Source of the DNA: Methylibium petroleiphilum PM1
Lineage (GTDB): Bacteria > Pseudomonadota > Gammaproteobacteria > Burkholderiales > Burkholderiaceae_C
NCBI RefSeq assembly: GCF_000015725.1
Contig: NC_008825.1
Coordinates: 3,162,001-3,226,000 of the forward strand
Direction: 5' to 3'
Length of the DNA stretch: 64,000 nucleotides
The position numbers and the translations under genes were made by a program. The notes under the pieces were generated by a model. The model was not told the origin of the DNA. It searched no databases and was given only the letters and a program-made list of their open reading frames with translations. Every line of letters starts with the position of its first letter. Within the stretch, counting starts at the first letter, position 1. Below are positions 109 through 29,805 of this stretch, in pieces.

Positions 109-184
<76 letters not shown>

Positions 185-1953: not shown

Positions 1954-2088
1954 TCGATGCTTTCTTGATGAGGATAAAAGTGGCGAGGTTCCGGCGCTCG
2001 AAGAAGACGCGCAGGCATGCGGCGGCGCTCCCGATGGGCCGGCAGGCCTCCGGGCAAGCGGTGCCGATCAGGGGGTGGGACGCTCAGT

Positions 2089-2643: not shown

Positions 2644-2835
2644 AACGCAGACTATATTTGTCCGCGTTCAATGGCGCAAGCGAAATCCGTCGCGGCGGCC
2701 CGCGCTACGGCGGCAGTCTGCGCGCGGGAGAATCTGCACGCATAGACACGCAGTGCGGTTCGAATCGCTGGCTCTTGGTCAATGGATGGAAGCGATCGAT
2801 GTCTGAGCAATGGCGCGTCAATTCGCACTGCCAAG

Positions 2836-2869
2836 AAAAACGGGCCAGCCCTTGTGAGGCTGACCCGTT
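2836..2869 (-). terminator. Original tRNA-Arg terminator, now orphaned
   Basis: On the minus strand, AACGGGTCAGCC pairs with GGCTGGCCCG and is followed by TTTTT. It lies just beyond the left tRNA-Arg fragment, at the place where transcription of the tRNA would have ended before the island inserted. It is now 23.6 kb from the intact tRNA. Confidence 0.7.
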
Positions 2870-2886
2870 GTTTCGTCGAGCAGATC

Positions 2887-2931
2887 TGGTGCGGCTGGCA
2901 GGAATCGAACCCACGACCCCTTGGTTCGTAG
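2887..2931 (-). repeat. Left attachment site (tRNA-Arg 3' fragment)
   Basis: These 45 bp are identical to tRNA-Arg nucleotides 33 (the U before the anticodon) to the CCA end. The 5' half of the tRNA is absent, so this is not a gene. The repeat begins at the anticodon loop, a common crossover site for tRNA-targeting tyrosine integrases. Confidence 0.92.
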
Positions 2932-7193: not shown

Positions 7194-7371
7194 CTCTTGC
7201 GCACGGAATTGCAAACAGCCTACTCGATCGACTCCAACGGACAAGCCTGATAAGTTGCCGCTTCGCCCAACCACCGCGCACACCAGCTGCCTGCGTGAAA
7301 GGGCTTGTTCTCCAGCTCGTCCCGCGATCCTGCGGCGCCCGAGCCGGATGCTGGTTTCCCGGAGGTTCGGT

Positions 7372-8937: not shown

Positions 8938-9833
8938 GCGATTCGCTGCCCCGGGAGATTCGCCAGATTCCGCTGGATCGCATCGACGTCTTGAATCCCC
9001 GCGAGCGCAACGCCAAGGCGTTTGCCGACATCGTCGCCAACATCAAGGCGATCGGCCTGAAGAAGCCGATCGTGGTGACACCGCGACCGTCTGACGATGG
9101 TTCCGATCGGTATCTTCTGGTCTGCGGCGAAGGCCGCATGAAGGCGTTCAACGCGCTCGGCCAGGCCACGATTCCCGCCCTTGTGGTCGAGGTTGACGAT
9201 GAGGATGCCTTCATCATGAGTCTGACCGAGAACGTTGCTCGGCGGCAATGGAGGCCGTTGGAACTGCTTGCAGGCATCGAGCAGTTGCTGGCGCGCGGCT
9301 ACAACCCTCGACAGATCAGCGTCAAGACGGGCCTGACCTTCAGCTACGTGCAGGGAATCGTCAGTCTGATCAAAGGTGGCGAGCAACGCCTGCTCGTCGC
9401 TGTCGAAAAGGGCGACGTGCCGCTCAACGCGGCCCTCGCAATCGTCGGCGCCGGTGATGACGACAAGGCTGTTCAGGCTGCGCTGCAGGAAGCCTATGAG
9501 GCCGGCACACTCCGCGGACGGAAGCTGATCGATACACGGCGCGTGCTTGAGCGGCGATCCAAGCTGGGCCGATCCATCGCTCGACGAATGCCCCGAGGGA
9601 CGAGCGACGTGACGACGTCGAGCCTGGTACGCACCTACCAGAAGGAGGTGGAGCGGCAGAAGGCGATGGTTCGGAAGGCCACCATCGCGCAGCAGCGACT
9701 ACTGTTCACCGTCAGTGCCCTGCAGGAGTTGTTCAAGGACGACAACTTCGTCAACTTGCTCCGTGCAGAGGGGCTGGACACACTGCCCAGGTACCTCGCC
9801 GAGCGGGTCTGGACGGACGGTCGGCGAACATGA
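8934..9833 (+). CDS. ParB N-terminal domain protein
   Basis: The protein has 299 aa from GTG 8934, overlapping the recombinase stop. The ParB/Srx-like N-terminal domain has VLNPRERNAKAFADIVANIK, VTPRPSD, CGEGRMKAF and LTENVARRQ, the usual nucleotide/DNA-binding motifs. A helix-turn-helix (RQISVKTGLTFSYVQGIVSL) follows and then a RepB-like C-terminal region. No ParA gene is near. In this setting it is more likely to act with the recombinase, for example in site choice or regulation, than in partition; that role is inferred. Confidence 0.83.
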   Translation: MSDSLPREIRQIPLDRIDVLNPRERNAKAFADIVANIKAIGLKKPIVVTPRPSDDGSDRYLLVCGEGRMKAFNALGQATIPALVVEVDDEDAFIMSLTENVARRQWRPLELLAGIEQLLARGYNPRQISVKTGLTFSYVQGIVSLIKGGEQRLLVAVEKGDVPLNAALAIVGAGDDDKAVQAALQEAYEAGTLRGRKLIDTRRVLERRSKLGRSIARRMPRGTSDVTTSSLVRTYQKEVERQKAMVRKATIAQQRLLFTVSALQELFKDDNFVNLLRAEGLDTLPRYLAERVWTDGRRT

Positions 9834-10708
9834 CCGCCATTGCCCTCGGCTTCGTGCCGGAGCCGATCACGGTGAGCCTCGACCGGATACTGCCATCGAG
9901 GAAGGTGCCTGCAGGCCTCGCAACGTCGAGGAAATTCCGCCAGGTCAAGTCGTCCATCGAGGAAGTCGGGCTGATTGAGCCGTTGTCGGTGGCCGCACTG
10001 GACGCCGTCAGCGGTCATCACCTGCTACTGGACGGCCACGTGCGGCTGGTTGCATTGCAGGCTCTCGGCCACGCGAGCGCGTCGTGCCTTGTGGCGAAGG
10101 ACGATGAAGGCTACACCTACAACAACCGGATCAATCGGCTCTCGACGGTGCAGGAGCACTTCATGATCCGGCGCGCGATCGAGCGCGGCGTCTCACAGGA
10201 GCGGTTAGCCAAGGCGCTCGGCGTGGACGTGTCCCAGATCGCGAAGAAGGTCAATCTGCTGGAAGGCATCTGCCCGGAGGCGGTCGAACTGTTCAAGGAC
10301 CGTCAGTTTTCGGTGGAGCTGGGGCGAGTGCTGCGCAAGATGAAGCCGACCCGGCAGATCGAGTGCGCCGAGCTGATGCTGTCCGCGAACAATCTGACGG
10401 TCGCCTACGCCGAGGCTCTTCTGGTCGCGACGCCGGCGCACGCACTGGTGTCGGACAAGCGTGCCCGAAAGATTTCTGGCGTGACGCCGGACCAGATGGC
10501 GCGGATGGAGCGCGAGATGGCGAACCTTCAGGGGCAGTACCGGTTGGTCGAGCAGTCCTATGGGCAAGACGTGCTCAACCTGGTGCTCGCCAAGGGATAC
10601 CTGATCAAGCTGATGGAGAACGCGCTGGTCGCGAAGTTCCTCAAGGCCAAACACCCCGACATGCACGAGCAGTTTGTGTTGATTGCCGCGGCCGTTTCAT
10701 TGGACTGA
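9830..10708 (+). CDS. Second ParB/RepB-type protein
   Basis: The protein has 292 aa; its ATG overlaps the preceding stop (ATGA). The N-terminal ParB-like domain (LDRILPSRKVP, SSIEEVGLIEPLSV, LLLDGHVRLVAL) is followed by a helix-turn-helix (ERLAKALGVDVSQIAKKV) and a helical C-terminal part like plasmid RepB proteins. Together with the previous protein it gives two ParB-fold proteins behind one recombinase. They may form a hetero-oligomer. Function in the module is unknown. Confidence 0.82.
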   Translation: MTAIALGFVPEPITVSLDRILPSRKVPAGLATSRKFRQVKSSIEEVGLIEPLSVAALDAVSGHHLLLDGHVRLVALQALGHASASCLVAKDDEGYTYNNRINRLSTVQEHFMIRRAIERGVSQERLAKALGVDVSQIAKKVNLLEGICPEAVELFKDRQFSVELGRVLRKMKPTRQIECAELMLSANNLTVAYAEALLVATPAHALVSDKRARKISGVTPDQMARMEREMANLQGQYRLVEQSYGQDVLNLVLAKGYLIKLMENALVAKFLKAKHPDMHEQFVLIAAAVSLD

Positions 10709-11118: not shown

Positions 11119-12183
11119 TTACCCGGTTCGCAGTTCATCCACATGCGGCAGCGCGATGACCGACGGTCGGATCTGCCCCGCCTCGTGAAAGTACACGCAA
11201 TCGTCCATGCCGACCGACGTGGTGGGCAAGAGATCGCCTCGCATACGTCCGAACGGCGCCAGACCCAAGAGTGGCACCAGGCCCCACAGCTTGCCACGCC
11301 ACCAGTGCAGCGAGGCCTTGCGGCAGGCCGGGAGCACGCCGATGCGCCGCCCGTCGACCCGAACCCAAATCAGGTCCCCGATGAGTTCGCGCCCGCCGTG
11401 CAGCCGGACGACATCCCACGTGCGGAGCTGGCCGACGACCTCCGCGATCCTGGTCGTCGTGGCAGGCGTCATCATCTCCAGGAGACCCTCGGTCAGCTTG
11501 GTGGCGGTGGCAGGCTTGGCGCATCGCTCGATCAACTTGGCCAGCAACAGCTCCGATCCGGACACGCCGCGGCCGAACCGCGAACCCGCAACTTGCAAAT
11601 CGTAGAGCGTCACCACACTCGGATGCGCCGCCAAACGCTCGTCGAGGTCGAGCCCCGGGTGGGTGAAGACGACGACCTGGCCGAACCGATCGCGCGGCAC
11701 GTCCAGACCGGTGGCTTGCAGATGCTGGCGCAGCGCTCGCACCTTGCTGTCGTTGTGCGTGACCAGGCTGTCGAATACCTGCACTTCGCCCGAGCGCCGC
11801 TGGTAGATCCACTGCTCGCCGTCGAGTCGCAAGGTGCCACTCCAGTGCTTGACTTCGATGATCGCGATGCGCCGCGGCGTCACGACGACCAGGTCGATCT
11901 CATAGCGCCCGGCAGCAGGATTGGCGGGGTCTCTCGGCACGCGCTTGCCGCCGAAGATGTGCCCGAAGCGGGACGACTGGTGCCGCCCCATGACGCGCCG
12001 AAGCGACAGTTCGCCCCGCGCGCCGGCCAGGACCTCCGGCAACTCGGCGTGGGGACGAACACGCATCATCTCGTGCCAGTCTTGCAGGCGCCGCTCCCAG
12101 CCGGGGTCGGCTGGCCGCAGTTCGGGCACGCCCGGCAGCCGAAAGTCTTCGAACCTGGCGTCGTCAGTTGGAAAGTCGGTCAA
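11119..12183 (-). CDS. NERD-domain (nuclease-related) protein
   Basis: The protein has about 354 aa. The proposed start is TTG 12183 (LTDFPTDDARF) with GGAG 9 bp upstream; the frame stays open further upstream but there runs into the gap before the recombinase gene. The NERD domain spans about residues 50-180: GARGELSLRRVMGR, YEIDLVVVTPRRIAIIEVKH (Asp ... Glu-x-Lys of the PD-(D/E)XK fold) and WSGTLRLDGEQW. A C-terminal region of about 150 residues has no recognised motif. NERD proteins are common in defence islands; catalysis here is inferred. Confidence 0.75.
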   Translation of the reverse strand: MTDFPTDDARFEDFRLPGVPELRPADPGWERRLQDWHEMMRVRPHAELPEVLAGARGELSLRRVMGRHQSSRFGHIFGGKRVPRDPANPAAGRYEIDLVVVTPRRIAIIEVKHWSGTLRLDGEQWIYQRRSGEVQVFDSLVTHNDSKVRALRQHLQATGLDVPRDRFGQVVVFTHPGLDLDERLAAHPSVVTLYDLQVAGSRFGRGVSGSELLLAKLIERCAKPATATKLTEGLLEMMTPATTTRIAEVVGQLRTWDVVRLHGGRELIGDLIWVRVDGRRIGVLPACRKASLHWWRGKLWGLVPLLGLAPFGRMRGDLLPTTSVGMDDCVYFHEAGQIRPSVIALPHVDELRTG

Positions 12184-12227
12184 GGGCGCTGCTCCGGCAA
12201 GTGAACCTGCCGGGATGCTTGCCCTGG

Positions 12228-12240
12228 ATCTCCAGGCTTC
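12228..12240 (+). repeat. 13-bp direct repeat, left of tyrosine recombinase
   Basis: ATCTCCAGGCTTC is repeated perfectly at 13308-13320, the two copies flanking the tyrosine recombinase gene and its palindrome. It could be a target or core duplication of a small recombinase unit. Confidence 0.45.
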
Positions 12241-12281
12241 AAGGGGTGGGTGCGCGGGCCGGGTACCGCCTCCGCCGCACC

Positions 12282-13238
12282 TCAAATGCCGATCCGCTCC
12301 ACCTCGTTGAGCTTGATCTGGTCGCCGCGCCGGTCGTACAGGCCCGTCGTGCGTGAAGACTCGTGATTGGCCATCTGCTGCGCGATCTCCAGCTTGCCGC
12401 CGTTCAAGAGGTACTCGGTGATGCCAGTCGCGCGGAACGAGTGACATCCAATGGCCGTGGCAATGCCGGCAGCTTCCGCGCGCCGCCGGATCATCCGGTA
12501 CACGTCGGCCTGGGACATCGGCCGCGACGTCAGCGTGTCGGTGGCAGCGCGCGCCGACCTGAACAGCGGCCCGCCGGGATCGTCGGCAATGCCGGCGGCC
12601 TCCAGGTAGTCGTAGAGCCACTCCTCCAGCCGGTGGTGGCACGGCATCTCGTGGCGCTTGCCGCCCTTCTCGTCCAGCCGCACCCACAGGCGCCGCCGCT
12701 GCGTGTAGACATCCTCGACCCGCAGCCGCGTCACCGCGCCGACGCGCGCGAAGGTGTAGACCATGGTCCCGATCAAGGCCCGATCGCGCATGCCCACCAG
12801 GGATTCGGCGTCGATGGACTCGACCAGGTCGCGCACCTCGCTCGCCGACAGCACGGGCGTCTTACCGGTCTTCACCGAGTAGCGCGGCCCGCGCACGGCC
12901 GCCGCCGGGTTGATCGGCATCACCTGCCCCACCACCAGCCAGTCGAACAGCGCGCGCAGCGCCGCCAGGCGCTGCTTCACCGAGGGTGCGGCCAGGTCGA
13001 GCTGCTCGACGTACAGCGCGACGTGGACCGGCTGCACCTGCCGCACGTCGCCGATGCCGAAGCGCGCGCACCAGTCGGCGAAGTGCTGCCCGGCCCGCGC
13101 GTAAGCCTTGCGGGTGTTCGGGTTGCGGATGTGCGCGGTGAAGAACTCCAGCGTGCGCGCCTTGGCGCGGGCGTCAGGCGCGAGCAGCGCCGGCACGGAC
13201 GCGGCGGGCAGGAGTTCGAGCTGGGACGGTGCGAACAT
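12282..13238 (-). CDS. Tyrosine recombinase (XerC/D-like integrase)
   Basis: The protein has 318 aa, the size of Xer-type recombinases. The N-terminal SAM-like domain (residues 30-105) has NPNTRKAYARAGQHFADWC. In the catalytic domain (residues 128-310) the Arg is in FARVGAVTRLRVEDV, His-x-x-Arg in CHSFRATGITEYLLNGG, His in QMANHESSRTT and the Tyr nucleophile in GLYDRR. All required residues are present, so it may be active. A perfect 14-bp inverted repeat with 6-bp centre lies 14 bp in front of the start codon. It is unrelated to the truncated integrase near tRNA-Arg. Confidence 0.88.
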   Translation of the reverse strand: MFAPSQLELLPAASVPALLAPDARAKARTLEFFTAHIRNPNTRKAYARAGQHFADWCARFGIGDVRQVQPVHVALYVEQLDLAAPSVKQRLAALRALFDWLVVGQVMPINPAAAVRGPRYSVKTGKTPVLSASEVRDLVESIDAESLVGMRDRALIGTMVYTFARVGAVTRLRVEDVYTQRRRLWVRLDEKGGKRHEMPCHHRLEEWLYDYLEAAGIADDPGGPLFRSARAATDTLTSRPMSQADVYRMIRRRAEAAGIATAIGCHSFRATGITEYLLNGGKLEIAQQMANHESSRTTGLYDRRGDQIKLNEVERIGI

Positions 13239-13342: not shown

Positions 13343-14552
13343 GGAAGCGCTGATCAACCCGCTTCGTGACCGCGACTCGGCCGACAGCGGGCGTTGATGG
13401 CGACTCGTGAACTCAGAAGTGGCACCGATGAGCCCCTTCTGCGGCACTTCGAGGCCGCTCTCAGGCCCCCGTTCATGCAGCAGACGCACTGAGGCCTTGG
13501 GCCAGCAATCGGCGCCGGGCGATGTACAAGTTGGCCAGCGCAGCGTGCGCCTTCGCGCGAGCTTCGTTCTTGGAGATCCCGCGGTAGCTGACCTTGCGGT
13601 AGCCGAACAGGTTCTTGATGACGTGGAACGGGTGTTCGACGATGGCCCGCACCTGAGCCTTGCGCCGTTCGAACCACTCGTGCATCGCCTTGGCCGGCCC
13701 TTCGGGCATGGCCTTGAGTTGGCCGCGCTTCATGGCGATACGCCAATCCATGTCCTGGCGCAGCCTGCCCTCTTCCTGCGCCGTCGTGATCTCGTCTCGC
13801 CTCTGGATGCCGGTGTAGCCGCTGTCGCCGTGAACTTGGCTCTCCTGGCCATGCAGCAGTTCGTGCGCGTGCGCCACGTCAGCCTCGTTGGCCGCGGTGC
13901 AGACCACGCTGTGGATCAGACCCGACTCGGCATCCACGCCCGAGTGCATCTTCATCCCGAAGTGCCACTGGTTCCCCTTCTTGGTCTGGTGCATCTCGGG
14001 GTCGCGCTTGCCGTCCTCGTTCTTCGTCGAACTTGGCGCGGCAATGATGGTGGCGTCCACCACCGTGCCCTGGCGCATCAGCAGCCCACGCTCGGTGAGG
14101 TGCGCGTTGACCTCGGCCAGGATGGCCGACGTCAAGTCGTGCTGCTCGAGCAGGCGGCGGAACTTCAGCAGCGTTGTGGCGTCGGGTACGTTCTCCCGCC
14201 CAAGGTCGATGCCGATGAACTCGCGCATGGCCTGGCTGTCGTACAGCGCGTCTTCCAGTGCCTCGTCGGCCAGCGTGTACCACTGCTGCAGGAAGTACAT
14301 GCGCAGCATCCGCGGCACGCCAATCGGCGGTCGGCCCACCTTGCCGCTCTTCGGGTAGTGCGGCTCGATCAGCGCCTCAAGCCGCGCCCACGGAACCACC
14401 ACGTTCATCTCGGCCAGGAAGCGCTCCCGGCGCGTCTGGCGCTTCTTGCCGGCGTACTCGGCAGTGGCAAAACTCGTCTGCTTCATGGCAGCATCATCGC
14501 CGCTGAATTCGCCGCACGCCATCGTGGCCTGCACGGATAAATCAGTGCTTCC
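13343..14552 (-). mobile_element. IS5-family element, copy A (1,210 bp)
   Basis: The ends are imperfect inverted repeats beginning GGAAGCGCTGATCAA and GGAAGCACTGATTTA. It is flanked by the 4-bp target duplication CTAG (13339-13342 and 14553-14556), matching the YTAR target of IS5-type elements. It is inverted relative to copies B and C and identical to them in every reading frame. It inserted in the gap between the tyrosine recombinase and the nSTAND3 gene, without breaking a visible gene. Confidence 0.93.
13473..14486 (-). CDS. IS5-family transposase (copy A)
   Basis: The protein has 337 aa from ATG 14486 (MKQTSFATAEYAGKK). The DDE catalytic set is in GTVVDATIIAAPSS, VHGDSGYTGI and the C-terminal RAIVEHPFHVIKNLFGYRKV, the Y-(2)-R-(3)-E-like signature region. 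An N-terminal DUF772-like part has YFLQQWYTLADEALEDALYD. The frame is intact, so the element is likely active. Confidence 0.93.
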   Translation of the reverse strand: MKQTSFATAEYAGKKRQTRRERFLAEMNVVVPWARLEALIEPHYPKSGKVGRPPIGVPRMLRMYFLQQWYTLADEALEDALYDSQAMREFIGIDLGRENVPDATTLLKFRRLLEQHDLTSAILAEVNAHLTERGLLMRQGTVVDATIIAAPSSTKNEDGKRDPEMHQTKKGNQWHFGMKMHSGVDAESGLIHSVVCTAANEADVAHAHELLHGQESQVHGDSGYTGIQRRDEITTAQEEGRLRQDMDWRIAMKRGQLKAMPEGPAKAMHEWFERRKAQVRAIVEHPFHVIKNLFGYRKVSYRGISKNEARAKAHAALANLYIARRRLLAQGLSASAA

Positions 14553-14809: not shown

Positions 14810-15358
14810 CTAGTCGTCGATGTCGTCGAAGATGCTGCGAGTACCGTGCTTCTCTTCCTGGACTCCGACGCTCCCCAGGGCGCGGGCACTGATCTTCGGC
14901 TCTGGTGGTTCTGCCTCCGAAATCCAGTCGTTCGCAGCCTTCTTCTCTCGCGTGATGATTCTCAACGCATCTTCGTCGCCACCAAACTGATCCTCCAGCG
15001 TGTTTAAAGACTCAAGGATGCCGTCTAGGTGCTCCTCCGGTGACTCTGACGAGTCATGACTGTCCTGGGCTTCCTTTCGCACCTCAGAAAACCTCGGCAG
15101 CAGAACGTCGCGCACTTGTAGTCTTAGGGTCTCAAATTCTTCGCCGACAAACATGCTCCGAATATCACTGTCTTTGAGCGCGTATAGGTCGTCCCCTTCA
15201 ATAGCATAGGCGGAAACCTTGTCAACGAACTTCTTCCGATACTCTTCCGGCAGCAACCCATAGCCGTGGAGTCGCACGGCGAGATCAACCTCAGGTACAA
15301 CACTGAGACGAAGCCCAGGGGTCGCAACTCGTTCAAGTAGCGTTGGCTCCTGCGCTAG

Positions 15359-16568
15359 GGAAGCACTGATTTATCCGTGCAGGCCACGATGGCGTGCGGC
15401 GAATTCAGCGGCGATGATGCTGCCATGAAGCAGACGAGTTTTGCCACTGCCGAGTACGCCGGCAAGAAGCGCCAGACGCGCCGGGAGCGCTTCCTGGCCG
15501 AGATGAACGTGGTGGTTCCGTGGGCGCGGCTTGAGGCGCTGATCGAGCCGCACTACCCGAAGAGCGGCAAGGTGGGCCGACCGCCGATTGGCGTGCCGCG
15601 GATGCTGCGCATGTACTTCCTGCAGCAGTGGTACACGCTGGCCGACGAGGCACTGGAAGACGCGCTGTACGACAGCCAGGCCATGCGCGAGTTCATCGGC
15701 ATCGACCTTGGGCGGGAGAACGTACCCGACGCCACAACGCTGCTGAAGTTCCGCCGCCTGCTCGAGCAGCACGACTTGACGTCGGCCATCCTGGCCGAGG
15801 TCAACGCGCACCTCACCGAGCGTGGGCTGCTGATGCGCCAGGGCACGGTGGTGGACGCCACCATCATTGCCGCGCCAAGTTCGACGAAGAACGAGGACGG
15901 CAAGCGCGACCCCGAGATGCACCAGACCAAGAAGGGGAACCAGTGGCACTTCGGGATGAAGATGCACTCGGGCGTGGATGCCGAGTCGGGTCTGATCCAC
16001 AGCGTGGTCTGCACCGCGGCCAACGAGGCTGACGTGGCGCACGCGCACGAACTGCTGCATGGCCAGGAGAGCCAAGTTCACGGCGACAGCGGCTACACCG
16101 GCATCCAGAGGCGAGACGAGATCACGACGGCGCAGGAAGAGGGCAGGCTGCGCCAGGACATGGATTGGCGTATCGCCATGAAGCGCGGCCAACTCAAGGC
16201 CATGCCCGAAGGGCCGGCCAAGGCGATGCACGAGTGGTTCGAACGGCGCAAGGCTCAGGTGCGGGCCATCGTCGAACACCCGTTCCACGTCATCAAGAAC
16301 CTGTTCGGCTACCGCAAGGTCAGCTACCGCGGGATCTCCAAGAACGAAGCTCGCGCGAAGGCGCACGCTGCGCTGGCCAACTTGTACATCGCCCGGCGCC
16401 GATTGCTGGCCCAAGGCCTCAGTGCGTCTGCTGCATGAACGGGGGCCTGAGAGCGGCCTCGAAGTGCCGCAGAAGGGGCTCATCGGTGCCACTTCTGAGT
16501 TCACGAGTCGCCATCAACGCCCGCTGTCGGCCGAGTCGCGGTCACGAAGCGGGTTGATCAGCGCTTCC
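15359..16568 (+). mobile_element. IS5-family element, copy B (1,210 bp)
   Basis: It has the same ends as copy A and is flanked by CTAG duplications (15355-15358 and 16569-16572). It is inserted in the C-terminal third of the nSTAND3 gene, antisense to it. Removal of the element plus one CTAG restores the frame across the junction. Confidence 0.95.
15425..16438 (+). CDS. IS5-family transposase (copy B)
   Basis: The 337-aa protein is identical to the copy A transposase, with the same start (MKQTSF), DDE motifs and stop. The frame is intact. Because the element is antisense to its host gene, it cannot drive the nSTAND3 remnant downstream from the transposase promoter. Confidence 0.93.
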   Translation: MKQTSFATAEYAGKKRQTRRERFLAEMNVVVPWARLEALIEPHYPKSGKVGRPPIGVPRMLRMYFLQQWYTLADEALEDALYDSQAMREFIGIDLGRENVPDATTLLKFRRLLEQHDLTSAILAEVNAHLTERGLLMRQGTVVDATIIAAPSSTKNEDGKRDPEMHQTKKGNQWHFGMKMHSGVDAESGLIHSVVCTAANEADVAHAHELLHGQESQVHGDSGYTGIQRRDEITTAQEEGRLRQDMDWRIAMKRGQLKAMPEGPAKAMHEWFERRKAQVRAIVEHPFHVIKNLFGYRKVSYRGISKNEARAKAHAALANLYIARRRLLAQGLSASAA

Positions 16569-17598
16569 CTAGATAAAGAGCAAGAAAATCCTTCGAACAG
16601 CGTGTTGAGAGAAATCGGGTTAGGACGCGCCATGCCCTCCAGGAGGCATACCAGCCGACCTTATTGCTCTCACTCTTCTTGTACTGGCGTAGCCGATCGG
16701 AAATCATTGCGAAATGCGATGGCGGCACGACGACCGCTTTCTCAATTCCGACGTTTCCGCAAGTTATTTGCGATGTCAAACTTTCAATCGAGCTTCCGGT
16801 CAAGAAGATTTCAAGCAGATCCGGGCTAAACGCCAGTGTCGCCGCGTACGCATCGCCTACGGTTGGATGTTTGAAGCGCCAAACCGGCTGATCATTCACA
16901 TGCACAACCGTCACAAGACTGCCGCTCAATGCGTTGAGTGCTTTTATGCAATCTCCAAGTGTGCTTCCCAGTCGCTCCAGCGCTTGAGGTTCGGATCCAA
17001 GAAGCGCAATCGGAATCTCTAGATGATCCTTTCGCATGTAGATCAGACCTAGCGCCGCTTTGCTGTGCGTGTCTAACCCCTGGATAACCTCGAGCAAGAG
17101 TTGCTCGCGCTTTTCGACGAACTCCTTCAGGAAGTAATCTGACGGAAACAGTCCCTGCGTAAAAAGTGGGTCTGCCAGGCGTCGCGCAGTCTCAGGAATG
17201 AACCGCGCGTGCGCAGCTACCTGCTCCAAATGCGGCTTCAGACTTGCAAGAAATTCTTTGGGCTGCTTTCCAAGCTTCAGGTGGTTGTACAGGATCTGCT
17301 GTCGCTCAGGCCCAGACAAGTCATGCACATCAATCACCACTTTGCTTTCTTTGAGCAATGGAAAGGCACCCTCCTTGAGATCGTACCGAGCACGGTTGTA
17401 GATGTAGTCGCGGGAGGTCATAACAACCTTCGCACCCTTCTTTAGCATCGACTTCACATGCAGAACATTGTGATTCCAACCGTGCACGAGGGGTGATTCA
17501 TACTGCGTCACGCCGAACGCATCATCGATCCAAAAGAACTGCGATGGCTCGCTAACGTTCCAGTGCTTGACCACGTCGGCGGGATCAGAAAGCTTTAG

Positions 17599-18808
17599 GG
17601 AAGCACTGATTTATCCGTGCAGGCCACGATGGCGTGCGGCGAATTCAGCGGCGATGATGCTGCCATGAAGCAGACGAGTTTTGCCACTGCCGAGTACGCC
17701 GGCAAGAAGCGCCAGACGCGCCGGGAGCGCTTCCTGGCCGAGATGAACGTGGTGGTTCCGTGGGCGCGGCTTGAGGCGCTGATCGAGCCGCACTACCCGA
17801 AGAGCGGCAAGGTGGGCCGACCGCCGATTGGCGTGCCGCGGATGCTGCGCATGTACTTCCTGCAGCAGTGGTACACGCTGGCCGACGAGGCACTGGAAGA
17901 CGCGCTGTACGACAGCCAGGCCATGCGCGAGTTCATCGGCATCGACCTTGGGCGGGAGAACGTACCCGACGCCACAACGCTGCTGAAGTTCCGCCGCCTG
18001 CTCGAGCAGCACGACTTGACGTCGGCCATCCTGGCCGAGGTCAACGCGCACCTCACCGAGCGTGGGCTGCTGATGCGCCAGGGCACGGTGGTGGACGCCA
18101 CCATCATTGCCGCGCCAAGTTCGACGAAGAACGAGGACGGCAAGCGCGACCCCGAGATGCACCAGACCAAGAAGGGGAACCAGTGGCACTTCGGGATGAA
18201 GATGCACTCGGGCGTGGATGCCGAGTCGGGTCTGATCCACAGCGTGGTCTGCACCGCGGCCAACGAGGCTGACGTGGCGCACGCGCACGAACTGCTGCAT
18301 GGCCAGGAGAGCCAAGTTCACGGCGACAGCGGCTACACCGGCATCCAGAGGCGAGACGAGATCACGACGGCGCAGGAAGAGGGCAGGCTGCGCCAGGACA
18401 TGGATTGGCGTATCGCCATGAAGCGCGGCCAACTCAAGGCCATGCCCGAAGGGCCGGCCAAGGCGATGCACGAGTGGTTCGAACGGCGCAAGGCTCAGGT
18501 GCGGGCCATCGTCGAACACCCGTTCCACGTCATCAAGAACCTGTTCGGCTACCGCAAGGTCAGCTACCGCGGGATCTCCAAGAACGAAGCTCGCGCGAAG
18601 GCGCACGCTGCGCTGGCCAACTTGTACATCGCCCGGCGCCGATTGCTGGCCCAAGGCCTCAGTGCGTCTGCTGCATGAACGGGGGCCTGAGAGCGGCCTC
18701 GAAGTGCCGCAGAAGGGGCTCATCGGTGCCACTTCTGAGTTCACGAGTCGCCATCAACGCCCGCTGTCGGCCGAGTCGCGGTCACGAAGCGGGTTGATCA
18801 GCGCTTCC
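17599..18808 (+). mobile_element. IS5-family element, copy C (1,210 bp)
   Basis: It is identical to copies A and B. The target duplication is TTAG (17595-17598 and 18809-18812), again YTAR. It is inserted between the P-loop and the Walker B motif of the nSTAND3 gene, also antisense. Confidence 0.95.
17665..18678 (+). CDS. IS5-family transposase (copy C)
   Basis: The 337-aa protein is identical to the transposases of copies A and B and intact. Three identical copies within 5.5 kb show that transposition was recent. Confidence 0.93.
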   Translation: MKQTSFATAEYAGKKRQTRRERFLAEMNVVVPWARLEALIEPHYPKSGKVGRPPIGVPRMLRMYFLQQWYTLADEALEDALYDSQAMREFIGIDLGRENVPDATTLLKFRRLLEQHDLTSAILAEVNAHLTERGLLMRQGTVVDATIIAAPSSTKNEDGKRDPEMHQTKKGNQWHFGMKMHSGVDAESGLIHSVVCTAANEADVAHAHELLHGQESQVHGDSGYTGIQRRDEITTAQEEGRLRQDMDWRIAMKRGQLKAMPEGPAKAMHEWFERRKAQVRAIVEHPFHVIKNLFGYRKVSYRGISKNEARAKAHAALANLYIARRRLLAQGLSASAA

Positions 18809-19538
18809 TTAGCACTGAAGACTTCCACTTGTCGGCAGACGCCATCGCCAGCATTGACGCAATGGTAGTCTTACCGGCTGCTGGCTCACCAATTAGGAGC
18901 ACAAAACCGTGGCGATCCAAAGCATCTACGGCATTGCGGTAGGCACTGGTCATCACGACTTTCGCCAAGTCTTCGCGCAATGAATCCAAGACGGCTCGCG
19001 CCTGTTCATATGCCCGTTCATCAAGAATCTGGCTTAGATCGCCGAGGCCGTAAACACGCGGTACGAGCGTGCGCAATCTCGTGTTTTCCCTGATCTGGTC
19101 GGTGATCCAAGTGCCGCCGAGGATTAGGACATTCTTTGCCCCGGCCGAAGTTAGCTCAGCCGCAATCCTTTCTTCCTGCTTGCCCGACACACCAGCGTTG
19201 GTCATCAACACGTAGACATCGCACAAGCCCTTTTCAGTGAGCCTACGTATCTTGGGCAACTCAGCCGCAATGTCTTCCTTTGCAAGAAGCGCGTTTGGCT
19301 TGCTAGTGAACTTGCACTGAATGACAAAGGATCCGCTCATCGTTTCGTTCTTGGTCGGCGTCCATGTGCCGCAGAACGCACCGTCACGCCCTCCATCGTT
19401 GGAGTCGAGAAACGACTTGACGGATTGCGCGAGCACTTCTCGCGCAATCGTGAGACACAACTGCTGGAAGCTGTTCCATCCGAGGCGGTGCAGGTCGTAC
19501 ATACTTGGCTGCGAGGCGTCCTTCCGACACAAGATCTA

Positions 19539-21365
19539 TCAGAGCATGGCACCGATCTTCCGCAGCCAGCCCTCTACCTCGCCGGTAGGGTCGCGCTGTT
19601 GGAGGCGCGCCGCTGTCATGCACGGGAAAGCTTGATTCGCCAACCGTTTCTTCGCCGTGCCGTCACTGATCGGATTGCCGACAGGGTTCGACGCAAACAA
19701 TGCCGCAGAGAGCAGCGCGGGAACGGCCCTGCCGGCGGCATCGCGCTGATCGGGCACGACGAACGTCACCCCGAACGCTTCTTGAATCGCGTCGGCATGT
19801 AGGTAGTTCTCAATTTCGTACTTCAAAGTCTGCAATGCCCAGGATCCGTCCGTGCGCAGGTTGACCGCGGCCACCGACGCGCCATAGGTTGCTACATCGC
19901 TGTCGTAGATATGAACCTCGGGACGGCCCAGTGCCTTTAGATAGTGTCCGGCAACCCAATGCTGCAGCGTCGAGCCGCCAAGAACGATGAACGCCACCCG
20001 TCCGTCGTTCCCCAAGTCGGGGATGGTCGCGTCGGCGAGATGAAGGGCGCGGCTCAGGCACTTGAAGGCGGTCACATCTGTCGGTCCCTCGACGCATAGC
20101 AGGACCTTGACCTTGCTGTCGGCGACGACGCCCAATGCCTGGGCCACCTCGGCGAAAACATCGACGCCTGCCTCGATTTTCGGATTGTCGTTGGCGTCTC
20201 GCGTGACGAACCGGATACTGTCAGTTGGCAGTTCGGCGGCGAACCCAGGACTATGGGTCGTTAGAAGCACCTGATATCCGCTCTCGCCGGCGAGCGCTTT
20301 GAATGACTCGATCAGGATCTTCTGATTGTTCGGATGCTGTGCAGTCTCGGGCTCTTCAATTGCGTAGATGATGCTGCGAGTATTGCCGCCGCTCGCCATA
20401 CGCCGCTCCGCGGCAGCCTTGAAAAAGCTTACAAGCACGAGTCGACGGACGCCACTTCCTCGCTTATTTAGAGGGATGCCGTCGTCGGTATCCATGTTGA
20501 CGGAAAAGAGCCCGGTCCACTTGGCCGTGGTCGGCGGCGTGAACTGTGGGGTCAGTTCCTTCGCAAGGTTGGGGTCGATGGCCTTCAGCGCCTTGTGCGT
20601 GCTTTGCGCGATCTCCTCGGCCTTCTCCTTAACCCTTTTCTGGATCAGATCGATTTCATCCTGCACCTCGGCGATTGCTGCAGCTACGGCCGCTTTCATC
20701 GGTGTTTGGACTTCCCCGTCGGAATCGCGGCTGCTTCGATCGCTTTGGAACAGCGCGAACATCGGCAAGTGGCTTTCGAGTTGCTCCCAGATACGTTTGC
20801 TGTCTTCCTTCGGCTTCGTTAGCGCCAGCGTGACCTCTGCAATCTTGAGGTCGGCTTCGGCGTCCCATAACGCCTTACGCATTCCGGGATTTCCCTTGAG
20901 TTGGACAGCGAGGCCTTTGGCCTTGATCAAGGCCTGCAGTTCCTTTTCTTTGAGATCAAGTAGCCCGGCGACACCGTCGGCGGTTGGATGGTGCGCAACC
21001 AGGAAGACCTCAACACTGGGAGTCTTCGTCTTGCAATCGTAGATCTTCTGGATCTTTAGTGTGCCGTCCGCTGTCAACAGATGTTCGTCAGCCAGCGTAG
21101 TAACGGCTCCCGCATCCAGCGTAAGTGACGCCGGCAGGTCCGAAAACTCGCAAGTTATGGAAAGCCTCGAATCGCCGCTATAGACATTGGCGTCGCCGGC
21201 TTCAATCTTCACAACGTCGTTATTGAAGAAGATTTCTAGGGCTTCGAGTACAGACGACTTTCCGATGTCGTTCTTGCCGACAAATGTTGTGAGCTCATCG
21301 AGCTGAACCGTTGCTTCCTCGCGATAGCAACGGAAGTTTTTGATCGCAACGGATTTCAGTCTCAT
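19539..21365 (-). CDS. OLD-family ATPase/TOPRIM endonuclease-like protein
   Basis: The protein has 608 aa from ATG 21365, behind a G-rich site. The N-terminal ABC/SMC-type ATPase has Walker A VGKNDIGKSS near residue 30, a signature-like GSGVRRLVLVSFF near 310 and Walker B IIYAIEEPE followed by LLTTHSP. The C-terminal TOPRIM-like domain starts VKVLLCVEGPTDVTAF near residue 425, with further acidic residues in HIYDSDVATYG. This is the layout of OLD nucleases such as GajA. No UvrD-like GajB partner follows. Instead the next gene, 36 bp on, is the Mrr/nSTAND3 gene, so the two are likely one operon and one defence unit. Confidence 0.82.
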   Translation of the reverse strand: MRLKSVAIKNFRCYREEATVQLDELTTFVGKNDIGKSSVLEALEIFFNNDVVKIEAGDANVYSGDSRLSITCEFSDLPASLTLDAGAVTTLADEHLLTADGTLKIQKIYDCKTKTPSVEVFLVAHHPTADGVAGLLDLKEKELQALIKAKGLAVQLKGNPGMRKALWDAEADLKIAEVTLALTKPKEDSKRIWEQLESHLPMFALFQSDRSSRDSDGEVQTPMKAAVAAAIAEVQDEIDLIQKRVKEKAEEIAQSTHKALKAIDPNLAKELTPQFTPPTTAKWTGLFSVNMDTDDGIPLNKRGSGVRRLVLVSFFKAAAERRMASGGNTRSIIYAIEEPETAQHPNNQKILIESFKALAGESGYQVLLTTHSPGFAAELPTDSIRFVTRDANDNPKIEAGVDVFAEVAQALGVVADSKVKVLLCVEGPTDVTAFKCLSRALHLADATIPDLGNDGRVAFIVLGGSTLQHWVAGHYLKALGRPEVHIYDSDVATYGASVAAVNLRTDGSWALQTLKYEIENYLHADAIQEAFGVTFVVPDQRDAAGRAVPALLSAALFASNPVGNPISDGTAKKRLANQAFPCMTAARLQQRDPTGEVEGWLRKIGAML

Positions 21366-21559: not shown

Positions 21560-23142
21560 CTACGCCCACGCCTCCCCCAACGCCTTCGCCTGCTGCAACA
21601 CCAGTTCCACCGCCGCCTCCTGCTGATCCGGCGGGTACTTGTACTTGCGCAAGATGCGCTTGACCATCAACCGCAGCTTGGCCTGTACGCTCTCGCGGGC
21701 AGACCAGTCCACGGTCAGGTTCTTGCGCAGGCTCTCGGCCAGTTCGTGAGCGATCTTCTTCAGCGTTTCGTCGGTCAGTTCGCGCACTGCCGATTCGTTG
21801 TTTGCCAGCGCGTCGTAGAAGCGCACCTCGTCCTCATTCAGGCCCAGTTGCTCACCGCGTGACGCCGCCTCACGGAACTTCTTGGCTATCTCCACCAGCT
21901 CTTCCATCACCTGGGCGGCTTCGATGGACCGGTTCTGGTAGCGCTGAACTACGTGCGTCAGCATGTCGGAGAACTTCTTGCTCTGCACCACGTTGCTGGC
22001 GAAGCGTGACTTGATCTCGCCTTCGAGCAGCCGCTCCAGCAATTCCACCGCGAGGTTGCGCTCTGGCAGGTTGCGAACCTCGGCCAGGAAGGCGTCGTCC
22101 AGGATGCCGATGTTGGGCTTGTCCAGCCCCACGGCGTCGAAGATGTCGACCACCTCCTCCGAGACCACGGCCGCGCTGATGATCTGCCGGATGGCCAGTT
22201 CACGTTGCTCGTCCATCTTCTTCTGCGCGCTGATGTCCCGCTTGGTCAGGATCACCTTCACGGCCTGGAAGAAGGCCACCTCCTCGCGCACGGCCTTGGC
22301 CTCGTCGAGCGTGCAGCACAACGTGAAGGCCTTGCTCATCGCCAGCGCCAGGTCGGCGAAGCGCTTCTTACCGTCCTTCAGGCCCAAGACGTAGTTCGCC
22401 GCGCCGGCCAACGTCTTGTGGCCGCCGGTGAGGAAGTCGCTGTAGTCGAAGCCATGCCCGTTCGTGCCAGCGAGCATGCCGCGCAGCGCATCCAGCTTCT
22501 CGGCCAGCACGCTATAGGCCTCGTGCGCGTCCACCGTCGGCCGGCCGCGGCCCTGTGCTGCGGTGTACTCCTTCAACGCCGACTTCAACTCGTTGGCGAT
22601 GCCGATGTAGTCCACCACCAGGCCGCCCTGCTTGTCCTTGAACACGCGGTTCACGCGCGCAATCGCCTGCATGAGGTTGTGGCCCTTCATCGGCTTGTCG
22701 ACGTAGAGCGTGTGCACGCAGGGCGCGTCGAAGCCCGTGAGCCACATGTCGCGCACGATGACCATGCGCAGCGGGTCGGCCGGGTTCTTGAAGCGCTTCT
22801 CCAGCCGCTTCTTTACCTGGGCGCTGTAGATGTGGGGCCGCAGCAGTGCCTTGTCGCTGGCCGAGCCCGTCATCACAATCTTGATCGCGCCTTGCTCGGG
22901 GTCGGGGCTGTGCCAGTCGGGCCGCAGCTTGACGATCTCGTCGTAGACATGCACGCAGATCTCGCGGCTCATGGCCACCACCATGGCCTTGCCGGTCTGC
23001 GCCTTGTTGCGCTCCTCGAAGTGCGCTACCAGGTCGGCCGCCACCTGGGCGATGCGCGGCGCGGCGCCCACCACCTTCTCCAGTGCCGCCCAGCGACTCT
23101 TGAGCTTGGCCTGCTGGCCTTCTTCCTCGTCTTCGGCCAGTT
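21560..23142 (-). pseudogene. hsdR: HsdR (type I restriction subunit R), C-terminal fragment
   Basis: About 527 C-terminal residues remain of a protein usually near 1,000. The second helicase lobe is visible: [40 protein letters not shown] and the motif VI-like [16 protein letters not shown]. The nuclease domain and first helicase lobe are missing, cut by the IS21-family element at 23143. No hsdM or hsdS is in the window. A short product could start inside the IS end (ATG 23179), but it would lack restriction activity. Confidence 0.85.
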
Positions 23143-23203
23143 TGTTGACGATCGCCCAGAACTGACCCGCTGCGATCATTCAATACTGACCCACCCCTGT
23201 AGG

Positions 23204-24037
23204 CTACCCGAGGGTGCCTTGGTCTGTGGATATCTCTGCGGTTCTGGGGTCTTGGGTCGGTCCTTTCCTGCGTTGCGTCGTTGATCGGGTTCGTGCCGCA
23301 GCGGTGGTCGTGCTGCTGTGCCTGAAGCGCCAGGAGTCGTTGCCGCTCTCGACGATGTGGCAGTGGTGCGTGAGCCGGTCCAGCAGCGCAGTGGTCATCT
23401 TCGCGTCGCCGAAGACGCTGGCCCACTCGCCGAAGCTCAGGTTGGTCGTGATCACCACGCTGGTGTGCTCGTAGAGCTTGCTCAGCAGGTGGAACAGCAA
23501 GGCGCCGCCGGCCTGGCTGAACGGCAGGTAGCCCAGCTCGTCCAGGATGAGCAGGTCCACGTAGGTCAGCCGGTGCGCGATCTGCCCGGCCCGGCCTGCG
23601 GCCTTCTCCGCCTCCAGCGCGTTGACCAGTTCCACCGTCGAGTGGAAGCGCACCCGCTTGCCGTGCCGCTGGACCGCCTCGATGCCGAGCGCGGTGGCCA
23701 GGTGCGTCTTGCCCGTGCCCGGCCCGCCGATGAACACCACGTTGTGGGCGGCCTCAGTGAACGCCGTCGTGTGCAGCTTGCGCACCAGCGCTTCATCGAC
23801 CGCACTGCTGGCGAAGTCGAAGCCCGCCAGGTCCCGGTGCGCCGGGAACCGGGCCGCCGTCATCTGGTACGCGATCGAGCGCACGTTGCGCTCGGCGCCC
23901 TCGGCATCGAGCAACTGCTCGACGAACTGCTCGGGCTCCAGCGCCGCATGCCGGCAGCGCGCCACCAGCTCCGGCCAGTTCGCCGCCATGCCGTGTAGCT
24001 TGAGCGCCTTCAGGCGCGTGACGATCTCGGCGCTCAT
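23204..24037 (-). CDS. istB: IS21 helper ATPase IstB
   Basis: The protein has 277 aa; its ATG overlaps the istA stop (ATGA). The AAA+ ATPase has Walker [15 protein letters not shown] near residue 105 and Walker [23 protein letters not shown] is the usual C-terminal motif. IstB loads the transposase on target DNA. The Thr/Arg-rich tail (after WRFRHSS) is typical of the family. Confidence 0.93.
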
Positions 24038-25566
24038 GGCTGCTGGGCCTCCCGCAGGCTGTCGTAGCGCTGCACGTCGGCGCGGGGCTCTTCCTTGAGC
24101 GTCGGGGCGGGCTGCGTCAGCTCGCGCAGCGCCGGCGCCCCATCCTTCAGCCGCGCCAGCACGTTGAGCACATGCTCGGCACTCGGCCTGCCGGCTTCCA
24201 GCGCGATCTCCGCTGCGACGAGCACGGCCTCCAGCCCGTGCACCGGCACGGCCGCCAGCACCTGCGCCATGACCCGGTCGCCGCCGGCATGGCGCAGCAG
24301 GTGACGCTGCAGCGTCTGCAGCACCTCGGGCATGGCCTTGAAGGGCGCGCCGTTGCGCAGCGCCCCCGGCTTGGTCTGCACCAGCGCGATGTAGTGCTGC
24401 CAGTCGTAGAAGGTCAGCTCCCGCTCGAAGCTCCTCGTGTGCCGGGCCACCTCGACGCCCTCGGCCACCAGCACCACGGCCTCGGGGTAGGCGCGCAGGC
24501 TGAGCACTTCGTTGACCCAGCGGGTCGGCACGCTGTAGCGGTTGCGCTGGAAGTGCACCAGCGCCGTCGCCGACACCCGAACGGGCTGCTCGACGTAGCC
24601 GTCGAAGGGCTTCGGGCATGGCATGAGGCGGGTGCGCTCGTCCTGCAGCACGTCGGCCACGCTCAGCTCGGACCACTCGGGGTGTGCCGTCTCCTCCCAG
24701 CCCTGGCGGCAGCGCTCGGCCAGCCAGGCGTTCAGGCTGGCCAGGTCGCTCCAGCGCCGCTCGCCGGCCTCGCGCCACACCTGGCGCCGGCGGTCCTGCA
24801 CGTTCTTCTCGACCACGCCCTTCTCCCAGCCCGAGGCCGGGTTGCAGAACTCGGGCTCGAACAGGTAGTGCGAGCACATGGCCTGGAAGCGGGCGTTGAC
24901 GGAGCGCGCCTTGCCCACACCGACCTTGTCCACGGCGGTCTTCATGTTGTCGTAGATGCCCCGGCGCGGCACGCCACCCAGCGCCTCGAAGGCCCGGGCG
25001 TGCGCGTCGAACAGCATCTCGTGGCTCTGGGCAGGGTAGGCCGTCAACCAGAAGGCCCTCGAGGCCGCCAGCTTGGTGTGCGCCACCTCGAGCCGGCGGC
25101 GCAGTCCGCCCACGAAGACGTACTCGCAGCTCCAGTCGAACTGGAAGGCGTCGCCCAGCTCGAAGCTCATCGGCACGAAGGCCGCACGCCGCGGGGCGCT
25201 GGCCTGCCGCTCGCGCCAGCGGCGCACCCACACGACCACGCGCGGGTAGCTGCCCGCGTAGCCCAGCGCCCGGATCTGCTCGAACAGGGCCTTGGCCGTG
25301 CGCCGCTCGCGCACCGGGCGGTGCGCATCGGCACGCAGTGCCGCCTCCAAGTGCTCGGCCCAGGCGTCAAGCACGCTCGCCGTGCTGCGCTCGGGGTACT
25401 TCGGCTCGGTCACGCCTTCCTCGCGCAACCACTGCCGCACGGTGTTCCTCGACAAGCCCGTGCGCCTCGCCACCTCGCGGATGGACAGGCCATCTCGCAG
25501 GTGCATCCGTCTGATCTTGGCCAACATCGCCACGCTGATCACTCCTGGCTCTCCCCGCTCGTTCAT
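24034..25566 (-). CDS. istA: IS21 transposase IstA
   Basis: The protein has 510 aa. An N-terminal helix-turn-helix ([20 protein letters not shown]) is followed by the DDE core, beginning [16 protein letters not shown] with [12 protein letters not shown] and the Glu in [13 protein letters not shown]. The C-terminal part is basic. The frame is intact, so the element may still move. Confidence 0.93.
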
Positions 25567-25649: not shown

Positions 25650-26369
25650 GCGCGGACGGTCCTGAACCGTGCGGCTCGTGTCTGGAGGCGAAACGGCAAA
25701 CCGTGGCTCGGAGCAGCACCGCTTATCGAGATGCTGGACGAGGAATCGACCAAGAGGAAGCCGTACCCGATGAGCTGGGCGCAACAGGCCCAGCTTTTGC
25801 CTAAGCTACCAGGTCATCTTCAGCGAATGGCGCTGTTCTCCCTGAACACCGGGGCTCGTGACGAGAACGTCTGCGGGCTCAGGTGGGATTGGGAAGTGCC
25901 AGTCCCCGAGGTTGGTCGGAGCGTCTTCGTGGTTCCTGCCACTGCGTTCAAGAGCAAGCGCCCCCATGTGCTGGTTCTGAACGACGTAGCGTGGAGCCTC
26001 GTGGAAGGCCAGAGGGGGAAGCACAAGGAGTTCGTCTTCGTGTACCGCAGGGAGCGGGTGAAGCACATCGACATCGAGCCCGCCATGAAGTACCGGCGGG
26101 TCGGGACGATCAACAACACCGCGTTCCAGGCGGCTCGCACTGAAGCTGGGCTACCGCAGGTGCGGGTGCACGACTTCAGGCACACATTCGCCCAGCGCTT
26201 GAGGGATGCGGGTGTGCCGGAGGAAGACCGAGCGCTGTTGCTTGGGCATGCCGTAGCGGGCATGGCCCAGCACTACGCAACGTCGACCGTCGAGAGATTG
26301 ATTGAGGTGGCGAACAAGGTCAGCGAGACGAGGGACAGGACGACGATCCTGCGCGTGGTGAACGGATGA
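25650..26369 (+). pseudogene. Island tyrosine integrase, 5'-truncated by IS21 element
   Basis: The frame is open from the IS edge: RTVLNRAARVW is the end of the core-binding domain, then the catalytic domain follows. The Arg is in NTGARDENVCGLRW, His-x-x-Arg in HDFRHTFAQRL, His in LLLGHAVAGM and Tyr in QHYATST. About 240 residues remain of a usual 350-400. All catalytic residues survive but the arm-binding N-terminus is gone. It ends 80 bp before tRNA-Arg, the typical site of the integrase that inserted the island. Confidence 0.88.
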
Positions 26370-26391
26370 AAGTCACGCAACGAGTCACGCA
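26369..26391 (+). repeat. GAGTCACGCA-type pair, right integrase arm sites
   Basis: AAAGTCACGCA and CGAGTCACGCA lie directly after the integrase stop and 58 bp inside the right attachment repeat. They match the tandem AAAGTCACCCA at 3023-3044 in sequence and orientation. Confidence 0.5.
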
Positions 26392-26397
26392 GAAAAG

Positions 26398-26431
26398 AAA
26401 AATGGGCTAGCTCTCGTGAAGCTAACCCATT
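26398..26431 (-). terminator. Island-borne terminator for tRNA-Arg
   Basis: On the minus strand, ATGGGTTAGC pairs with GCTAGCCCAT around a short loop and is followed by TTTTTC. It lies 18 bp beyond the tRNA 3' end. It replaces the original terminator, which was displaced to 2836-2869. It could also end the integrase transcript from the other side. Confidence 0.7.
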
Positions 26432-26448
26432 GATCCATAACGACATTT

Positions 26449-26493
26449 TGGTGCGGCTGGCAGGAATCGAACCCACGACCCCTTGGTTCGTAG
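26449..26493 (-). repeat. Right attachment site (within tRNA-Arg)
   Basis: This is the 45-bp repeat identical to 2887-2931. It spans tRNA nucleotides 33-77, so the island end rebuilt the tRNA 3' half and the gene stayed intact. Confidence 0.92.
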
Positions 26494-26525
26494 CCAAGTA
26501 CTCTATCCAGCTGAGCTACAGCCGC
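26449..26525 (-). tRNA. tRNA-Arg (anticodon ACG)
   Basis: This is a 77-nt cloverleaf with encoded CCA. On the minus strand it begins GCGGCTGTAGCTCAGCTGG, the anticodon loop is CTACGAA (anticodon ACG) and the T-loop is TTCGATT. The A34 is normally modified to inosine and reads CGU, CGC and CGA. It is the integration site of the island. Confidence 0.95.
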
Positions 26526-26537
26526 ATCAAGCCCTGC

Positions 26538-26567
26538 AGTTTAGCACGAAGCGTTTTCGCGTCTCAA
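26538..26567 (-). promoter_or_regulatory. tRNA-Arg promoter
   Basis: On the minus strand, TTGAGA (26567-26562) and TAAACT (26543-26538) are separated by 18 bp, ending 12 bp before the tRNA. The -35 box overlaps the end of hemY. Confidence 0.6.
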
Positions 26568-27811: not shown

Positions 27812-27824
27812 CGGAGCCGGCGCC

Positions 27825-29776: not shown

Positions 29777-29805
29777 GCGGCGGAGACCCGTCGAGACAAG
29801 ACCGT

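Follow-up and report, generated by a model that had tools for sequence, protein, structure and literature searches.

In a 64,000-nucleotide stretch of the Methylibium petroleiphilum PM1 genome (contig NC_008825.1, positions 3,162,001 to 3,226,000; hereafter the window), an intact gene for an OLD-family ATPase-nuclease is followed on the same strand by a second gene (gene 2), which joins an Mrr nuclease domain to an nSTAND3 core and is now interrupted by insertion sequence (IS) elements. Comparison with its relatives suggests that gene 2 was probably a self-contained Mrr-STAND defence gene of the Avs/NLR-like kind, a gene that recurs directly downstream of other defence genes, and most of all of those for ABC-class ATPases. 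The initial annotation of this DNA had regarded the two genes as a candidate two-gene defence unit, with the STAND gene replacing the helicase of Gabija.

Gene 2 begins with an ATG at position 19502 and thus, as annotated, 36 bp past the OLD stop codon. Its frame is split three ways by two identical 1210-bp IS5-family elements, and pieces 1, 2 and 3 align in order to an intact, plasmid-borne relative of 755 amino acids (locus L011) with 74, 69 and 50% identity. The annotated length of 754 codons fits the gene as it was before the insertions, while the frame now lies in three pieces with two IS copies between them. The 4-bp target duplications, read from the junction sequences, are CTAG for copies A and B and TTAG for copy C; the element is present in 12 identical full copies genome-wide, and the insertions in gene 2 look simple and recent. 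Since two IS copies interrupt the frame, the full gene 2 protein cannot be made at present. A working pair in this genome is therefore not supported, as gene 2 is cut twice: at this locus the add-on gene is broken and OLD is intact.

The Mrr and nSTAND3 architecture assigned to gene 2 was confirmed. The Mrr motif (D..GGRD..QCK), the P-loop and the Walker B (IDD) are all present in the pieces, and the nSTAND3 model PF20720 is matched separately by piece 1 (E = 1.2e-11) and piece 2 (E = 2.3e-22); piece 3 gave no family match. Across all 66 aligned members, the Mrr residues D36, D40, Q62 and K64, the Walker A residues G210 and K211, the Walker B residues D255 and D256, and the pair H474-P475 are invariant. 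Among ten close relatives the ATPase part (residues 151-350) is best conserved, with a mean identity of 85-93%, followed by 70-71% for residues 51-150 of the nuclease part, while residues 551-773 show the lowest values (55-67%), as expected if the C-terminal end serves as the sensor.

A structure model of the intact relative L026, built from 66 sequences, has a predicted local distance difference test score (pLDDT) of 83.6 and a predicted template modelling score (pTM) of 0.66, and Foldseek matched this model to Avs4 (8dgf, E = 8.3e-8) and Avs5 (3.6e-6), and also to NLRC4 and Apaf-1. A sequence search of solved structures with the STAND protein returned no credible match, the best being a syntaxin at 0.0047. 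The intact relatives display the Avs-type layout of effector, STAND ATPase and C-terminal sensor region, and both Avs4 and Avs5 share an N-terminal effector, a STAND ATPase and a C-terminal helical region with the STAND gene. The Avs4 chain is nevertheless 1534 amino acids long, compared with about 755 for the STAND protein, and the frequent ABC-class upstream neighbour and the conserved C-terminal tail set the STAND family against both. Avs5, given as SIR2 joined to nSTAND3 in the available text of PMC12931631, has nSTAND3 in common with gene 2 and differs in its effector, which is Mrr here. Avs models of PADLOC matched neither the window pieces 1-3 (E ≤ 0.01) nor L026 (E ≤ 1e-10). The only PADLOC match of L026 at the latter threshold is PDC-S73 (PDLC05079, a single-gene candidate of PADLOC-DB; 115.6 bits, 7.4e-34), which spans residues 2-373 of 757 and is also matched by window pieces 1 and 2 (7.2e-20 and 1.9e-9). 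The entry consists of one gene with no partner, and we take PDC-S to mean 'phage defence candidate, single'.

The STAND proteins furthermore end in a characteristic tail of F[DS]D[IV]D type (14810-14850 in the window), which comes after a low-confidence linker in the L026 model. The strict pattern RSIFDD[VI]D is found in 58 of 86 full-length members, and 84 of 86 satisfy the relaxed pattern [IVLTM]F[DSER]D[IVL], L015 and L020 being the members without it; of 3681 open reading frames only one other ends in the tail, a piece split off from the STAND gene itself in L093. As the tail is present whatever the upstream partner, a role as a partner tag was rejected, and we infer from its presence with every partner that its binding target would be either something shared or the STAND protein itself.

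We then compared the neighbours of the STAND gene. Six intact relatives were searched against genome contigs, where 204 stretches encode STAND relatives; the best 80 of these, the viral loci (three near copies of one another, L101-L103), six plasmid loci and four loci from genomes of the window's order make up a sample of 92, which includes metagenome-assembled genomes and leaves aside L059, which duplicates L017, as well as loci L001-L007, whose flanks are short. A neighbour was counted when a co-oriented gene of at least 150 amino acids ended between -250 and +350 bp from the STAND start, with the same distance applied downstream. By this rule, a co-oriented gene lies upstream in 70 of the 92 loci and downstream in 30; among the 22 loci with no such upstream gene, L042 and L073 are at a contig edge and the other 20 have more than 2 kb of upstream sequence. 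The OLD family is the largest upstream cluster (12 of 70 loci, the near copies L101-L103 among them), so that the predicted recurrence of the two genes side by side in other genomes was borne out. The OLD-paired loci span four phyla (Pseudomonadota, Ignavibacteriota, Verrucomicrobiota and Nitrospirota) and include viral contigs. Closest to the window pair is L054 (Ignavibacteriota), with 60% identity for OLD and 56% for the STAND protein over piece 2, and the same order and strand are kept in L079 (Verrucomicrobiota) at 39 and 42% identity, respectively. Five of the twelve OLDs (L024, L064, L070, L078 and L098) are distant, scoring 56-89 bits with the window-subfamily profile compared with 533-911 for the other seven. 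In the window's order, a relative of piece 2 was detected in 5 of 300 genomes, the window's own included, and one of them, G154, has the OLD and STAND pair.

The upstream proteins were scanned with Pfam, 40 of them singly and all 70 as a set, which gave overlapping matches to SMC_N (24), AAA_21 (24), AAA_23 (22), AAA_15 (17) and AAA_13 (10). By cluster and scan together, 26 of the 70 are ABC-class ATPases (12 OLDs and 14 others; a 27th, L021, has a weak phmmer match), compared with 0 of the 30 downstream genes (Fisher p = 2.8e-5). The asymmetry persists after removal of the near copies L102 and L103 (24/68 against 0/29, p = 5.9e-5). The downstream Pfam set covers 25 of 29 families, and in a separate search none of the 30 downstream proteins was matched by any of 24 ABC-class partners at E ≤ 1e-3. 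The enrichment of ABC ATPases upstream of the STAND gene and not downstream suggests that its position matters. Median spacing to the STAND gene is 32 bp for 24 ABC-class loci and 78 bp for other upstream genes.

Among seven of the 14 other ABC genes run through PADLOC, L022 (389 bits) and L030 (259) match PDC-S06, L052 (229), L033 (116), L026 (106) and L032 (81) are LmuB-like, and L023 (98) is Ppl-like. Further genes upstream include AbiEii, HipA, RES, KAP, Schlafen AlbA, pol-beta/HEPN, type I S and R genes and helicases. In L094 (1846-7512), GajA (914 bits) and GajB (838 bits) precede a STAND frame of 577 amino acids that stops 18 bp short of the contig end, so that a complete Gabija system is followed by a STAND gene. 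Taken as a whole, the STAND relatives follow Lamassu-like SMC, PDC-S06, complete Gabija, type I restriction-modification, AbiE or HipA genes, or nothing. In the Bradyrhizobium records L012 and L081, an AbiEii-type gene lies 4 bp upstream of the STAND gene, AbiEi being annotated before AbiEii in L012.

For the history of the pairing, a STAND tree was built from the piece-2 region with a quick method and Shimodaira-Hasegawa-like approximate likelihood ratio test (SH-aLRT) support; it holds 88 rows, the window plus 87 loci, with L102 and L103 (copies) and L019, L020 and L086 (short or split matches) left out. On this tree the OLD label changes 9 times (gains or losses) and the 'other ABC' label 10 times, at least 7 changes of each being forced by well-supported branches. 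Set against 500 label shuffles, OLD is hardly clustered (a mean of 10.6 changes, with values as low as 9 in 42 of 500), whereas 'other ABC' is clustered (as low in 3 of 500). Some of the long branches join each other in this tree. With six long-branch rows omitted, the approximately unbiased (AU) test rejected a single clade of the 11 OLD-paired STAND rows (p-AU 1.6e-49), a group named before any tree, and likewise a clade of the six STAND rows with window-type OLD (p-AU 1.8e-83), a group chosen after the STAND tree by OLD score. In the 14-row OLD tree, OLDs with a STAND neighbour interleave with single ones, giving 5 changes (p-AU 7.8e-7; L109 is counted as single though its contig ends), and the 'paired' label is not clustered (4.8 changes after shuffling, 376 of 500 as low). 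Moreover, 55 comparisons among 11 loci show no correlation between OLD and STAND identities (Spearman 0.00, Mantel p = 0.41), while the six loci with window-type OLD, few and thus weak as a test, gave Spearman 0.14 and an exact Mantel p of 0.27. In L024 the STAND protein is 70% identical to that of the window and OLD 22%. Judged from both trees, on which the pairing was gained or lost several times, OLD and STAND are not a co-evolving pair. A dedicated two-gene unit is accordingly not supported: it was rejected as a clade on both trees and is not borne out by the identity comparison, and the exchange of partners without co-divergence argues against a dedicated complex.

The OLD gene itself encodes 608 amino acids from its ATG in an unbroken frame, and its description as an ABC-type ATPase with a TOPRIM-like C-terminus proved right. 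The Pfam scan matched AAA_15 at E = 8.4e-81, and the G30-K36 region, NKRGSG, EEPET and H371 are invariant in all 14 aligned OLD rows; these stretches we take to be the P-loop, signature, Walker B and H-loop of ABC ATPases. The TOPRIM-type acidic residues E426, D430, D488 and D490 (window numbering) are likewise invariant in 14 of 14. The window OLD had no Pfam TOPRIM match at E ≤ 0.001, whereas the relatives L018 and L024 matched PF20469 (TOPRIM). TsOLD (6p74) is the nearest solved structure by sequence (E = 9.6e-20), compared with PtuA at 6e-13, GajA at about 1e-12 and AriA at 5.3e-4, and PADLOC ranked AriA (222 bits) before Old (108 bits) and GajA (78 bits). A structure model of OLD built on six sequences (pLDDT 66, pTM 0.38) has GajA chains as best Foldseek matches, which is weak support given the quality of the model. 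Phage records gave 5 matches to the window OLD, none spanning 80% of it.

The window OLD resembles class 1 OLD, the classes being defined as in the available text of PMC12796447, in that TsOLD is its best solved relative and 7 of the 14 aligned rows have no STAND neighbour (three by tblastn, four by annotation). Class 1 OLDs are genes that stand by themselves in varied neighbourhoods; here six rows, the window included, precede a STAND nuclease, and in L109 the contig ends after the gene. At the class level, an OLD relative at E ≤ 1e-60 occurs in 6 of 369 genomes, the window's own included, and in the other five no STAND gene turned up by tblastn within flanks of roughly 1.5 kb. The window OLD appears to be a class-1-like OLD nuclease, of a kind that can also stand alone, and it is presumably active as a nuclease in its own right. 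The OLD relatives of L010, L111, L113 and L114 (plasmids) adjoin restriction or methylase genes, just as the window OLD has an HsdR remnant for a neighbour.

We surmise that, in a functional relative of gene 2, the C-terminal helical sensor would bind a phage trigger on infection. Nucleotide exchange and oligomerisation of the STAND core would follow, and DNA cleavage by the Mrr domains thus clustered would end the infection. The position behind defence genes would probably provide co-transcription together with a second, independently triggered layer. Several observations weigh against this interpretation. The upstream preference for ABC genes could mean a specific interaction instead of layering, and the upstream genes also include integrases, a resolvase, an aminotransferase, an inositol phosphatase, a piece of glutamine synthetase and proteins with no Pfam match. 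The sample holds the best-scoring loci only and is biased to close relatives, gene calls were simple open reading frames, and related loci are not independent. The Foldseek TM-scores of the L026 model are low (≤0.29 by query length), so that the match concerns domains and not the whole protein. Besides, the top PADLOC match of the window OLD is AriA and not Old, which tells against a plain class 1 OLD label. The AriA model in question (PDLC02979) covers OLD residues 2-376, and we take it to be a general ATPase model because it also matches the true GajA of L094 (137 bits); a separate AriB gene is not found beside the window OLD, while PARIS combines an AriA ATPase with an AriB TOPRIM protein, split or fused.

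A specific interaction would amount to a two-component system, in which the ABC ATPase, OLD or other, would be the sensor or a co-nuclease, its head state or DNA product being read by the STAND protein, so that any ABC family could serve. The restriction of ABC genes to the upstream side (26/70 against 0/30), their tight spacing and the precedent of WonAB, for which the available text of PMC12137116 reports that both genes are needed, are in its favour. We nevertheless consider it unlikely, as STAND occurs without OLD and OLD without STAND, partners outside the ABC class exist, and residues 351-773 still average 55-79% identity in ten close relatives with different partners. Co-divergence is absent over the 11 loci, and over the six with window-type OLD as well, although these are few and the test is weak.

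A related and rather unlikely possibility is a plug-in immune module, a STAND nuclease docked behind unrelated ABC-ATPase defence genes that would fire on a state common to them, such as an engaged ABC head dimer or a DNA product, with the near-invariant tail (RSIFDD[VI]D type) as docking or self-locking peptide. If true, it would constitute a universal second line of defence, one able to sense the engagement or the defeat of an ABC system in the first line.

That ordinary defence genes merely gather in the same islands, with no functional meaning in their adjacency, is distinctly unlikely in our view. Partner swapping, integrases, housekeeping neighbours and solitary copies would all agree with chance, as would the shuffle results for the OLD label (42/500) and for the 'paired' label on the OLD tree (376/500). 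However, chance as the sole explanation is weakened by the upstream/downstream control (p = 2.8e-5), order and strand are kept (co-oriented genes in 70/92 loci upstream against 30/92 downstream), and the 'other ABC' label is clustered on the STAND tree (3/500). A Gabija variant with the STAND nuclease in place of GajB, as initially proposed, shares an OLD-type ATPase-TOPRIM first gene and a DNA-acting second gene with the window and has the GajA matches of the poor OLD model on its side, yet it is very improbable and was rejected on the GajA score (78 bits for the window OLD against 914 in L094) and on L094, which keeps GajB and adds the STAND gene; the window OLD is also nearer to TsOLD than to solved GajA, the Pfam scan reported no helicase domain in the gene 2 pieces, and OLD is accompanied by the Mrr-nSTAND3 pieces and the HsdR remnant instead of a UvrD-like GajB.

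Among described systems, WonAB has a similar arrangement: the available text of PMC12137116 presents it as an OLD-ABC ATPase with a PD-(D/E)xK nuclease and assigns it to a wider family in which ABC-ATPase sensors are coupled with nuclease effectors. There, too, an OLD-family ABC ATPase gene is followed by a gene of restriction-type nuclease fold; the likeness is drawn from the descriptions, the same text mentions no STAND core in WonB, and it separates WonA from OLD, Gabija and PARIS by structure and domain composition. STAND proteins with Mrr_cat replacing TIR appear among the P4-satellite hotspot genes in the available part of PMC9122126, and that of PMC12839542 mentions, in the surroundings of BREX, nucleases with a link to OLD-ABC ATPases. 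The literature search, with most subscription papers outside it, found no description of the OLD and Mrr-nSTAND3 combination or of the STAND gene's exchange of partners; within that scope, the view that this is no named system holds for the combination, and the STAND gene alone matches PDC-S73. The names of defence systems usually refer to fixed sets of genes, whereas this well-conserved STAND nuclease keeps swapping neighbours. If the STAND gene adds a function, an extra layer may have gone unrecognised in some catalogued 'complete' systems, and the preference for ABC genes makes it directly testable whether STAND proteins can read other immune proteins.

Both genes lie in an island of about 23.5 kb (2931-26385) that is inserted in tRNA-Arg(acg) and absent from the sister species G665. 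In the empty site there (L128), window positions 164-2931 and 26385-30080 are contiguous, with 87% and 92% identity. The features of the island are compiled in the table below; the names IS21 and istB are our assumption from the translations.

Features of the locus and its island in the window
Feature	Position	Strand	Basis
Left 45-bp perfect repeat of the tRNA-Arg 3' end, island border	2887-2931		Direct repeat; G665 empty site
Third IS5-family copy (A), adjoining gene 2	13343-14552	-	Target duplication CTAG
Gene 2 piece 3: end of C-terminal region, conserved tail RSIFDDID	14810-15358	-	L011 identity
IS5-family copy B within gene 2	15359-16568	+	Target duplication CTAG; family taken from scan of identical copy
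Gene 2 piece 2: Walker B (IDD), remaining STAND core, start of helical C-terminal part	16569-17598	-	PF20720 2.3e-22
IS5-family copy C within gene 2	17599-18808	+	Target duplication TTAG; family taken from scan of identical copy
Gene 2 piece 1: Mrr nuclease domain and P-loop	18809-19502	-	PF20720 1.2e-11; PDC-S73 7.2e-20
OLD-family ATPase-nuclease gene, intact, class-1-like	19539-21365	-	Open reading frame, AAA_15, TsOLD similarity, motifs
C-terminal remnant of type I restriction HsdR gene, directly upstream of OLD	21560-23179	-	T1RH-like_C 2.7e-124; PADLOC REase_I 2e-164
IS21-like element adjoining HsdR remnant; istA-like 24034-25566, istB-like frame before it	23204-25566	-	rve, Mu-transpos_C_2; approximate limits
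Tyrosine integrase fragment adjoining tRNA	25731-26369	+	PF00589 7.7e-15
tRNA-Arg(acg), integration site; right 45-bp repeat copy at 26449-26493	26449-26525	-	tRNA call, repeat

The island cargo also includes an HNH protein. A large serine recombinase followed by two RepB/ParB-like genes forms a three-gene block at 7255-10708, and a frame at 11119-12687, whose start is unsure, matches the NERD domain (PF08378, 1.9e-14) and is adjoined by a tyrosine recombinase at 12282-13238.

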